Made by a program: the position numbers and the translations under genes. Below, in pieces: positions 5,635 to 8,737 of a stretch of DNA of 32,435 nucleotides; positions within the stretch are counted from its first letter, which is position 1; each line of letters starts with the position of its first letter. The notes below the pieces were generated by a model. It saw only the letters and a list, made by a program, of their open reading frames with translations, was not told the origin of the DNA and searched no databases. Source of the DNA: Patescibacteria group bacterium (GTDB lineage Bacteria; Patescibacteriota; Minisyncoccia; Minisyncoccales; Staskawiczbacteraceae); NCBI GenBank assembly GCA_018895235.1, contig JAHIOM010000014.1, positions 69,203-101,637 on the forward strand, in the 5' to 3' direction.

Positions 5635-7332
5635 TCATTTTTTACAATTTTCGCTCGAAATTTCTTCGTTTCGCGACGAAAAACTATTGGGCAACTGGCT
5701 TAAAATGAAGTTCCGCAAAAGCTTTACCTCAGGCAATCTGAAAAGACCGGCTGTTAACAAATAAATAACCAAACCTAAAATGCCGACAACGCTTGTTTGT
5801 AAAAAGAGGATTATAAAGGTTTCAGATCCCAAAAACCCTCCTAGCATTTGGCGCAAAAAATAAGATAAGGCCATTGTCAAAGTTGTAACTAATAAGACCC
5901 TACCGAAGAAAAACAACAACTCTTTTGCCTTAAAATCGCCTATTTTTTTCTTTAAAAGAAGTAATAACAAAACAAGCTGGAAAATCGCTGATAAAGAAAC
6001 AGCTAAAGGCAAACCAACCACAGCCAGGTTTTTCATTCCTTGAATTTTTAGGCCGCTAGCCACCATATTGGAAAAAGCATTATTAAAACTTAAAGCCCAA
6101 ACAAAAGAATAAGCTAGGGCCGTATTTATAGCCACGCTAATAATACTGGCTATTGTTGGAATAACAGTATTTTTTACTGAATAAAAAGTTTTTGATACCA
6201 AATAAATTAACCCCTGGGCAAAAAGGCCGAGCATAAACACCCCAAAACAAGCAGCGGTTAATTTGGTGTCTGTCCAATCAAAACGTCCCGCTCCAAAAAC
6301 AATCCTTACTAATTGGGCCCTTAAAATGAACGCCAAACCGCTTAATGGAATAATTAAAAAAAGAATCTGGCGAAAAACAGAAACGAATTTCTGCACTAAA
6401 GCCTCTTTTTCTCCTTTGGCAAAAGACAATGATAAAGCTGGAAAAACAGCAACGGCAAAAGGAACAGCAATTAAACCTATTATTGGTAAAGACAGGTCGT
6501 TGGCTAAATTAAAAACGCTAACACTCCCAGCCAACAAAGTAGAACCAATAATAGTAATTACAATTAGATTAATTTGAGTAGCAGCCAAACCAATAGCCCT
6601 TGGTATTGTTAATTTAATAGTTAGCAAAAAATCAGAATCAAAAAAACTAAATATTTTCTTGATTTTAAAACCGGTCTTAAATAAAGCTGGGGCCTGAATA
6701 AGTAAATGCATTAAGGCCCCAAAAACAATACCCCAGGCAAGGCCTTTAATACCCATAATCGGCACAAAGAACAAAATACCGACAATACTTCCTAGATTGT
6801 AAACTATCGGAGCTAAAGCCGTAATTAGAAATCTTTGGAAAATCCTTAACACAGCTGAAATTATATTGCTAATACCCATCAGTATCGGGCTTATAAACAT
6901 TATCCTGGTCAGCAGGGTTGTTATCTCTTTTTTATCCATCGAAAATCCTGGCGCGATTAAAGAAGTCAATTGAGGAGCTAAAATAAATAAAACTGCGCAG
7001 ACCAAAATCAAAACAAGCAAAGAAACATTTAATAAATTAGCTAAATAAGAAAAAGCTTTTTCTTTGCTTTTAACTAAGTTCTGGGTAAATATCGGGACCA
7101 CTGCCACACTTATGGCTCCTGTCATTAAAACTAAAGCAATAAAGTCGGGAATTCTAAAAGCAGTATAATATACATCTAACTCATTACCTGCGCCAAAACT
7201 ACTGGTTAATAAACGATCTCTGATTAAACCTAAAACAAAACTCAAAAAAGAGGCAATAGATAAAATCAGGGCAGCAGCTGAAATGCGCTGAGTTTGATGG
7301 TTTGATATTCTTTGAAGAAACTTTTTTATCAT
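5635..7332 (-). CDS. murJ: Lipid II flippase MurJ (MviN)
   Basis: Multi-TM protein with SFVLGLIRDRLLTSSFGAGNELDVYYTAFRIPD and VVPIFTQ motifs. Confidence 0.93.
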   Translation of the reverse strand: MIKKFLQRISNHQTQRISAAALILSIASFLSFVLGLIRDRLLTSSFGAGNELDVYYTAFRIPDFIALVLMTGAISVAVVPIFTQNLVKSKEKAFSYLANLLNVSLLVLILVCAVLFILAPQLTSLIAPGFSMDKKEITTLLTRIMFISPILMGISNIISAVLRIFQRFLITALAPIVYNLGSIVGILFFVPIMGIKGLAWGIVFGALMHLLIQAPALFKTGFKIKKIFSFFDSDFLLTIKLTIPRAIGLAATQINLIVITIIGSTLLAGSVSVFNLANDLSLPIIGLIAVPFAVAVFPALSLSFAKGEKEALVQKFVSVFRQILFLIIPLSGLAFILRAQLVRIVFGAGRFDWTDTKLTAACFGVFMLGLFAQGLIYLVSKTFYSVKNTVIPTIASIISVAINTALAYSFVWALSFNNAFSNMVASGLKIQGMKNLAVVGLPLAVSLSAIFQLVLLLLLLKKKIGDFKAKELLFFFGRVLLVTTLTMALSYFLRQMLGGFLGSETFIILFLQTSVVGILGLVIYLLTAGLFRLPEVKLLRNFILSQLPNSFSSRNEEISSENCKK

Positions 7333-8027
7333 TATGTTTTTCGGATAATGATTATCGGTGTTTGCTCATCTGCCTGGCCAGCCGGGTTATCTTTTAAAAT
7401 CTTTAATAATAGTTTTTCTTTGCCTTTTAAGTCCTGGCTCTTGCCCAAAACATTACCGCCCAGATCATTAACATCGGCAACAAAAAAAGAAAAACCAAAC
7501 TGATTTTTTAATTTATCGCACAGTGAATCGCAGTCCAAAGGACCCAAAAGACCAACATCACCATATTGGGGATAGAATTTTCCGTAAAAGCCGTCCAGTT
7601 CATTTATCTGGTGGCCGGCTATTCTGTAAAAGGCGCCTGATATGCCGAATAATTTAGCAACCATACTGCAAATGCCGGCTAAAATTATCCTTGGCAAACC
7701 AGCCATATTAATGGCTATCTGCATCTTTAAGGGATTGCCCACTGAAAACCCATAAGGAGTTTTCTTGGCAAACTTGGATAAAAACTTAGCCCAAAAGCCA
7801 ACCTTAACATCTTTTTTAAAAATTATCCTCTTTTGGATAATAGAAACGATTTTCTGGCCCAAAGCAATAATGTCGCTTTTTTGGGCGACAGGCATAATAT
7901 ACTTCTGGACAATATTTTCAAAACTATCTTCTGAATCAATAAAATGGGTTTTGACGGGATAACGAGCCCATTGCTGTCCATCAACCTCTATTATCAATTT
8001 TTTACCTTGGTTGGGATTTATATCCAT
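7332..8027 (-). CDS. Coenzyme F420-0:L-glutamate ligase (CofE)-like domain protein
   Basis: DIIALGQKIVSIIQ..., GGNVLGKSQDLKGKE, PAGQADEQTPIIIIRK; overlaps the murJ start. Confidence 0.65.
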   Translation of the reverse strand: MDINPNQGKKLIIEVDGQQWARYPVKTHFIDSEDSFENIVQKYIMPVAQKSDIIALGQKIVSIIQKRIIFKKDVKVGFWAKFLSKFAKKTPYGFSVGNPLKMQIAINMAGLPRIILAGICSMVAKLFGISGAFYRIAGHQINELDGFYGKFYPQYGDVGLLGPLDCDSLCDKLKNQFGFSFFVADVNDLGGNVLGKSQDLKGKEKLLLKILKDNPAGQADEQTPIIIIRKT

Positions 8028-8031
8028 ATAT

Positions 8032-8303
8032 TAGAGTGCAGGATTCGGACCAAAATCAATTGAGCGGAACGAATTTAGTCAATCTTCAAGACACGAGAAG
8101 CGATACGTACCTTTAGGTACGTGAGTGACGAGAAACGCCGAAGGTTGGCTAAATTCGCCCGCCCCGAAGGGAAATTAAAAAATGGCCGATTTCTTCGTTG
8201 CTCCTCCTCAATGTGGCATTTACCATAATCTCGTTGTCGCGCCTAGAAATCGTCTCATTTTTTAATTTCTCAAGCTGATTCTGGTTCGAACCCTGTACTC
8301 TTA
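8032..8303 (-). ncRNA. Candidate structured RNA / 5' leader: outer inverted repeat enclosing two long arms
   Basis: Outer stem 8032-8064 with 8269-8303. Arm A 8071-8087 with 8140-8156, tipped by ACGTACC-TTTA-GGTACGT (8105-8122). Arm B 8171-8184 with 8256-8269, continued by CGATTTCT 8187-8194 with AGAAATCG 8245-8252. Confidence 0.6.
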
Positions 8304-8331
8304 ATTGTATTCATTTTTTGGGATTTTTCAA
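8304..8331 (-). promoter_or_regulatory. Putative promoter of the structured element / cofE-murJ
   Basis: Minus strand TTGAAA (8331-8326)-N16-TACAAT (8309-8304). Confidence 0.5.
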
Positions 8332-8342
8332 ATGCTTAGGGC

Positions 8343-8371
8343 TTGACTTGGTTCCAAAAATTTGGTAAAAT
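8343..8371 (+). promoter_or_regulatory. Sigma70-type promoter of rnpB
   Basis: TTGACT (8343-8348)-N17-TAAAAT (8366-8371), ~7 nt upstream of the rnpB 5' end. Confidence 0.75.
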
Positions 8372-8377
8372 ATAAAA

Positions 8378-8732
8378 GTCCTAGTAAGTTAGGTGATCGC
8401 TGGCCGCGAAAGTGGCTGGAGGAAAGTCCGAACACCAACGCCCTCAAAAGAGGGGTTAAAATAGTAGCGGCTAACAGCCGCCCACCGCAAGGTGCGAGGT
8501 GCGAACAGTGACGGCTTTGATCGAAAGATCAAGCATCCCGGTCCCGGGATAATTCTATAGCAATATAGAGGTGAAACGGCTAAATCCTTATTGGGTGCAA
8601 GAACAAAGCAGAAATTCGGGTTAAATTCATCTTGAATTTCTGTTAAAAGTAGTTCGCCAGAGCTAATAAGTAATTATTAGCCTAGACAGATGATCATCCT
8701 CGACAGAATTCGGCTTATCGACTTGCTAGGAC
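8378..8732 (+). ncRNA. rnpB: RNase P RNA
   Basis: GAGGAAAGTCCGAACACC conserved core, ACAGAATTCGGCTTATCG 3' core, P1 pairing GTCCTAG/CTAGGAC at the ends. Confidence 0.95.
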
Positions 8733-8737
8733 ATCAA

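Follow-up and report, generated by a model that had tools for sequence, protein, structure and literature searches.

The gap between the divergent genes for a cofE-like ligase and the RNase P RNA (rnpB) of this Staskawiczbacteraceae bacterium, a member of the Patescibacteria (CPR), holds a 272-nt inverted-repeat element. The question raised by the locus is whether this element is a structured RNA that serves its neighbours or a mobile sequence that has landed beside them; an initial annotation of the window (the whole stretch of 32,435 nt analysed here) had named it a candidate structured RNA and listed a cis-regulatory leader, a processed ncRNA and a MITE-like element as options. Our comparative analysis argues for mobility: with a probability of roughly 85%, the window element is one member of a family of small, palindromic and non-autonomous mobile elements found in CPR bacteria, and a dedicated regulatory RNA of the cofE/rnpB locus is not supported.

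The sequence and coordinates given by the initial annotation agree with the window (Table 1), the Rfam match to rnpB and the annotation of cofE and MurJ place the element between rnpB and cofE-murJ as described, and its left end (8032) does stand 4 nt away from the start codon of cofE (8025-8027). Provided that the promoter-like site facing cofE is used, the element may form the 5' leader of that gene. The reported lack of an ORF was borne out (none of at least 80 aa inside 8032-8303), as was the lack of a recognised RNA family: an Rfam scan of the element gave no family at gathering score and only weak miRNA and lncRNA matches far under threshold. Around the element copies, only adjacent or enclosing tRNA, rRNA and rnpB genes scored above threshold.

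Table 1. Features of the element and its surroundings, in window coordinates
Feature	Position	Strand	Basis or remark
MurJ	5635-7332	-	neighbouring gene
cofE-like F420-0:gamma-glutamyl ligase (PF01996)	7332..8027	-	flanking gene, outside element
Element, inverted doublet with three-arm fold	8032..8303	.	fold z ~-8.7 on both strands, family profile, arm model
Outer stem, left half (terminal inverted repeat), consensus YTAGGG...TTTAG	8032..8064	+	fold, end consensus, alignment
Arm A hairpin	8065..8161	+	arm-A covariance model from other copies
Arm A tandem G.A mismatch ladder, 5' side	8088..8103	+	mismatch count over copies
Arm A tandem G.A mismatch ladder, 3' side	8123..8143	+	mismatch count over copies
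Central mini-hairpin CCC..GGG between arms	8163..8171	+	alignment/consensus pairs
Arm B hairpin, opposite-strand homologue of arm A	8172..8268	-	arm-A model match, alignment score
Outer stem, right half, consensus CTAAA...CCCTAR	8269..8303	+	fold, end consensus, alignment
Promoter-like TTGAAA-16-TACAAT facing cofE	8304..8331	-	consensus match only
Promoter-like TTGACT-17-TAAAAT, TG preceding	8343..8371	+	consensus match only; directly upstream of rnpB, outside element
rnpB, RNase P RNA class A (RF00010)	8381..8733	+	Rfam match; outside element

RNAfold, applied to both strands of 8032-8303, reproduced the outer stem, arm A and arm B that had been drawn by eye. The plus strand reached -109.2 kcal/mol against -65.4 +/- 5.1 for shuffled sequences (z -8.67), and the minus strand -109.1 kcal/mol (z -8.75). 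An arm-A covariance model, built from 28 copies that did not include the window copy, matched arm A of the window (8058-8170, plus strand, E 1.4e-22) and also arm B on the opposite strand (8163-8275, minus strand, E 9.8e-12). Over all copies, arm A aligned to the reverse complement of arm B with a mean score of 38.3, compared with 18.9 +/- 3.7 for shuffled sequences and 17.0 for the two arms as read. The model matches and alignment scores thus identify the arms as inverted homologues, and the element, judged by its sequence, is an inverted doublet of homologous hairpins and nearly its own reverse complement. Neither the homology of the arms nor the dispersed-repeat nature of the element was part of the initial annotation.

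The family comprises about 70 non-redundant copies of ~260-280 bp, distributed patchily across Patescibacteria; its profile, which included the window copy, aligns to 8032-8299 with E 3e-63. Six copies are present in the genome of the window (837 kb, 40 contigs): besides the window copy, one each lies on contigs 7, 16, 10, 27 and 28, and most of these are ~70-77% identical to it. Among 58 relatives, 14 have the element. A degenerate pattern applied to GTDB contigs also matched in other phyla, many of these matches being due to chance, and only profile-confirmed copies were used; these lie on contigs named Staskawicz-, Berkel-, Nealson-, Yanofsky-, Harrison-, Azam- and Curtissbacteria. The arm-A model, run on a sample of 294 genomes from across the phylum, detected the element in 7, several of them in other classes and some with multiple copies. 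A viral origin was rejected, since phage and plasmid records yielded no match and none of five IMG/VR pattern matches fitted the profile, which marks them as chance.

Several copies carry alterations of their own. The contig 10 copy (L004, G000:C10:35487-38663) has lost its left part, the left half being replaced by a different inverted repeat, CCCCCACACCAATTT...AAATTGGTGTGGGGG, which is possibly another palindromic element inserted into arm A. Small extra hairpins occur at recurrent places in the arms of L019/L047, L048 (G037), L299, L301 (G283) and L050 (G030), sometimes as an identical insert in two copies of one genome. A cupin-type gene, glucose-6-phosphate isomerase-like by eye, has its stop codon inside the contig 27 copy (L005, G000:C27), so that the C-terminus of its protein is element-derived. 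The right arm of L005, read as a coding 3' end, had raised the possibility that the outer stem was picked up from the target as an inverted copy; this was rejected because that arm aligns with the outer stems of the family, so that it is the gene that has run on into the element.

Evidence of movement comes from near-identical copies at unrelated sites: four copies in one genome (G030), three of them on a single contig, are 97-99% identical with unrelated flanks, and two other bins hold sets of copies at 88-95% identity. The divergent cofE/rnpB gap is element-free in eight relatives, where it measures 61-104 nt, and here it measures 353 nt, which equals 81 nt plus the 272 nt of the element. 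Most copies are intergenic or sit at gene ends, with 34 of 57 outside ORFs compared with ~24% of random points. With respect to co-directional neighbour genes their orientations divide 32:15 (p 0.019, the copies being not fully independent), a skew compatible with strand-biased insertion or with some effect of RNA. The same element stands before, behind and inside unrelated genes, including those of 23S and 16S rRNA, which speaks against the proposed cis-regulatory leader or processed ncRNA, while the dispersed copies, their near-identity at unrelated sites and the eight empty gaps bear out the MITE-like option in so far as it meant a mobile repeat.

The copies in rRNA genes allow filled and empty sites to be compared directly. 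L039 of the window's genome (G000:C28:36808-40038) and L020 (G005:C8) occupy one and the same 23S rRNA site in two genera, their stems differing by compensatory changes, and L044 (G018:C10, at a contig end) lies in the tetraloop of 16S helix 6 in a third genus. The empty 23S site of G007 reads GAGAACAAAGTTAT, the filled ones GAGAACAA[element]AAGTTAT or GAGAACAA[element]AGTTAT; the empty 16S site in the genus of L044 reads GGGGCCGCAAGGCACC. The comparison shows no target duplication; no more than a single base, and that an ambiguous one, is repeated. An empty 23S copy was not found in the genome of the window with a pattern able to detect one. These three copies, and not the window copy, resemble rRNA intervening sequences in lying within an rRNA gene and being closed by a long stem. 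Bacterial rRNA intervening sequences (PMC4990558) and CPR rRNA insertions (PMC11270868) are likewise stem-closed, non-intron and located at the tips of 16S or 23S hairpins, but the rRNA copies described here belong to a dispersed family that is also intergenic, and they lack an S23-type ORF. A 2024 survey of CPR rRNA insertions describes a remainder that are neither introns nor ORF-bearing, most of them shorter than 200 bp, and places the majority of insertions at either the top or the base of a stem-loop (PMC11270868). The family could be a candidate source of some of these uncharacterised insertions.

Compensatory changes preserve the fold in each of the three arms. In an alignment of 39 sequences, double compensatory changes were found in 61 of 73 consensus pairs, and many positions of the outer stem show three or four pair types. 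In arm A, tandem G.A/A.G mismatches alternate with standard pairs: those at columns 64/103 and 65/102 occur in 51-56 of 70 copies, those at columns 67/100 and 68/99 in 49-51 of 70, and at most sites the tandem G.A is present in 49-64 of 70. Arm B has C.T/T.C at the equivalent places and thus carries the G.A ladder on the other strand. Some copies have standard pairs in place of the G.A mismatches, which suggests that the helix is kept and not the sequence.

Covariation of this strength could arise from an RNA, from folded DNA or from homogenisation of the arms alike. A functional structured RNA, acting as a cofE leader or a processed ncRNA and perhaps disseminated in the manner of a mobile regulatory RNA, would account for the covariation, for tandem G.A mismatches, which are typical of structured nucleic acid, and for the location of some copies within transcribed rRNA; the orientation excess and the promoter-like site that would transcribe the element into the cofE leader also fit. 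However, gene context is not conserved and the same gap is element-free in the eight relatives, and on either strand one arm is G.A-rich while the other is its C.T complement. Nor are the wobble pairs biased to the transcribed strand. With one count per cluster of similar copies, the ratios of G.T to A.C for the outer stem, arm A and arm B were 40:44, 44:22 and 15:23, respectively. Selection on a minus-strand transcript should produce an excess of A.C, yet copies with neighbouring genes on the minus strand showed 77 G.T against 42 A.C, opposite to the RNA expectation, which argues against a role as single-stranded RNA. We therefore consider a functional RNA very unlikely. The covariation in homologs that the initial annotation had named as a check is amply present, but its rule that covariation supports an RNA needs qualification: the wobbles are balanced overall and show no transcribed-strand bias, so that covariation alone does not indicate an RNA. 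Constraint acting at the level of folded DNA would fit these patterns best; the G.T excess in arm A is left without explanation by that reading and counts against it.

A neutral palindrome whose arms are homogenised by template switching would also covary, without any selection. Complementarity does outlast sequence change, as quasi-palindrome correction would produce, and in G030 two copies (L013 and L026) are 94% identical in the interior while their outer stems, each still self-complementary, are entirely different; it looks as though stem or interior had been swapped as one unit. Nevertheless, fixed mismatches survive in most copies (G.T at profile columns 155/228 and 170/214, and the tandem G.A/C.T loops), there are invariant loop bases, and four pair types occur at many positions, which makes homogenisation a most improbable account of the family.

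The ends of the element bear on how it may have moved. Over 61 copies the end consensus is symmetric, YTAGGG / CCCTAR. A scan of the flanks of the 61 copies for duplications found no repeat of 2-9 bp enriched at any offset; this statistical result and the two rRNA sites, one of which two genera probably share by inheritance, are together the basis for the absence of a duplication. A direct flank duplication was discarded as a candidate, the raised mean being mainly due to two copies in locally repeated DNA. Hence, of the MITE signature sought after the initial annotation, the dispersed copies were found and target duplications were not detectable. Targeting of hairpin loops was likewise rejected, as flank complementarity in 60 copies (6.03) was not above that of shuffled pairs (5.82 +/- 0.20); a few clear insertions into hairpin loops do exist (L017, L034, L155 and both rRNA sites). 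Sequences resembling GGATTCGAACC/GGTTCGAATCC appear in both outer arms of one widespread subfamily, in the window at 8032-8058 and 8277-8303. Derivation of the outer stem from the 3' end of a tRNA, considered for the T-arm-like GGTTCGAATCC, was rejected, since the motif is absent in several subfamilies and ARAGORN and Rfam found no tRNA; the likeness of GGATTCGAACC/GGTTCGAATCC to a T-arm is probably coincidental.

In an ordinary MITE, the outer stem would come from a conventional DDE transposon as its terminal inverted repeat and would function as duplex DNA, and the internal folds would be incidental. The symmetric ends, the inverted-repeat layout and the dispersed copies agree with this, and the element shares with bacterial MITEs and small mobile sequences (PMC2229807, PMC10969869) its short, non-autonomous form, its terminal inverted repeats, the want of a transposase gene and the capacity of transcribed copies to fold. 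Against it stand the missing target duplication and the terminal stems, which are almost entirely different between subfamilies and still complementary within each copy, varying by compensatory change where a MITE would have a fixed recognition sequence. The strong covariation of arms A and B is a further obstacle, as terminal repeats alone predict none there. An ordinary MITE is thus an unlikely explanation.

An element of the REPIN type, moved by a RAYT/Y1 transposase (IS200/IS605 superfamily), would explain the inverted hairpin doublet, the TAG-containing ends, the absence of target duplication and the mostly intergenic location, and Y1 transposase genes (PF01797) are present in 34 of 58 relatives, with one in the genome of the window. 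That gene (G000:C11:68206-68568, a strong match) lies on the same contig, ~0.6 kb to the left of the window start; evidence linking it to the element was not seen. Y1 presence does not follow that of the element: Y1 genes are absent from G030, G025, G032 and G003, which carry copies, and G042 has 15 Y1 genes and no element. Y1 was accordingly rejected as the partner, as was an IS110 transposase, found in only 2 of the 14 genomes tested. REPINs and REP sequences (PMC3116915, PMC3733652) are likewise small, non-autonomous, non-coding palindromes forming inverted hairpin pairs and dispersed mainly between genes, but a REP measures 20-40 bp and the element ~270 bp, with a long outer stem that closes the hairpins into a three-way junction and with the tandem G.A ladder. 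Moreover, the element has neither a GTAG (PMC3733652) nor a CGTC tag, its ends being YTAGGG with T or C before TAG in most copies and G in only 5 of 61, and solo arms were not seen in the genome of the window. A REPIN origin therefore appears doubtful, and as the REP tag, the RAYT link and target duplication were not found, we regard the element as REPIN/MITE-like and do not file it under either family. No longer, gene-carrying or autonomous version was present among the element loci collected, and no excised form was seen.

Integron attC sites and the ends of IS200/IS605 elements take part in recombination as folded single strands, and it is in this form, conserved mismatches included, that they are recognised. 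The element is similarly foldable with conserved mismatches and might be recognised as a single strand; unlike those substrates, it is strand-symmetric, shows no attC core-site match by eye and has no integrase or Y1 partner that we could find. Tentatively, and with slightly less than even confidence, we propose that the mobile element moves as folded DNA. An enzyme acting in trans would recognise the element as a folded single strand, or as cruciform DNA, and move it in that form; both strands would present the same fold owing to the inverted doublet, and the arm with the G.A ladder would be the likely recognition part. On the mobile-element reading as such, the window copy landed in the ~80-nt divergent cofE/rnpB gap without taking in the promoter-like site of rnpB, and it may now serve cofE as a 5' leader. 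The bolder proposal of an undescribed mobile class, a strand-symmetric folded three-way junction recognised by its G.A ladder, moved by an enzyme that is neither Y1/HUH nor IS110 and also supplying rRNA intervening sequences of CPR bacteria, seems to us improbable in its entirety.

A limited literature search for palindromic repeats or MITEs in CPR bacteria found nothing, which does not imply their absence elsewhere. Although CPR bacteria have streamlined genomes, the element family has persisted in several classes of the phylum with an elaborate fold kept by compensatory change, and it enters rRNA genes, which are often single-copy in these bacteria. The G.A-ladder fold, mirrored between the strands, constitutes a defined substrate with which a mobilising enzyme may be sought. 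The family also carries a warning for RNA-discovery pipelines, as strong covariation and energy z-scores may come from folded mobile DNA.
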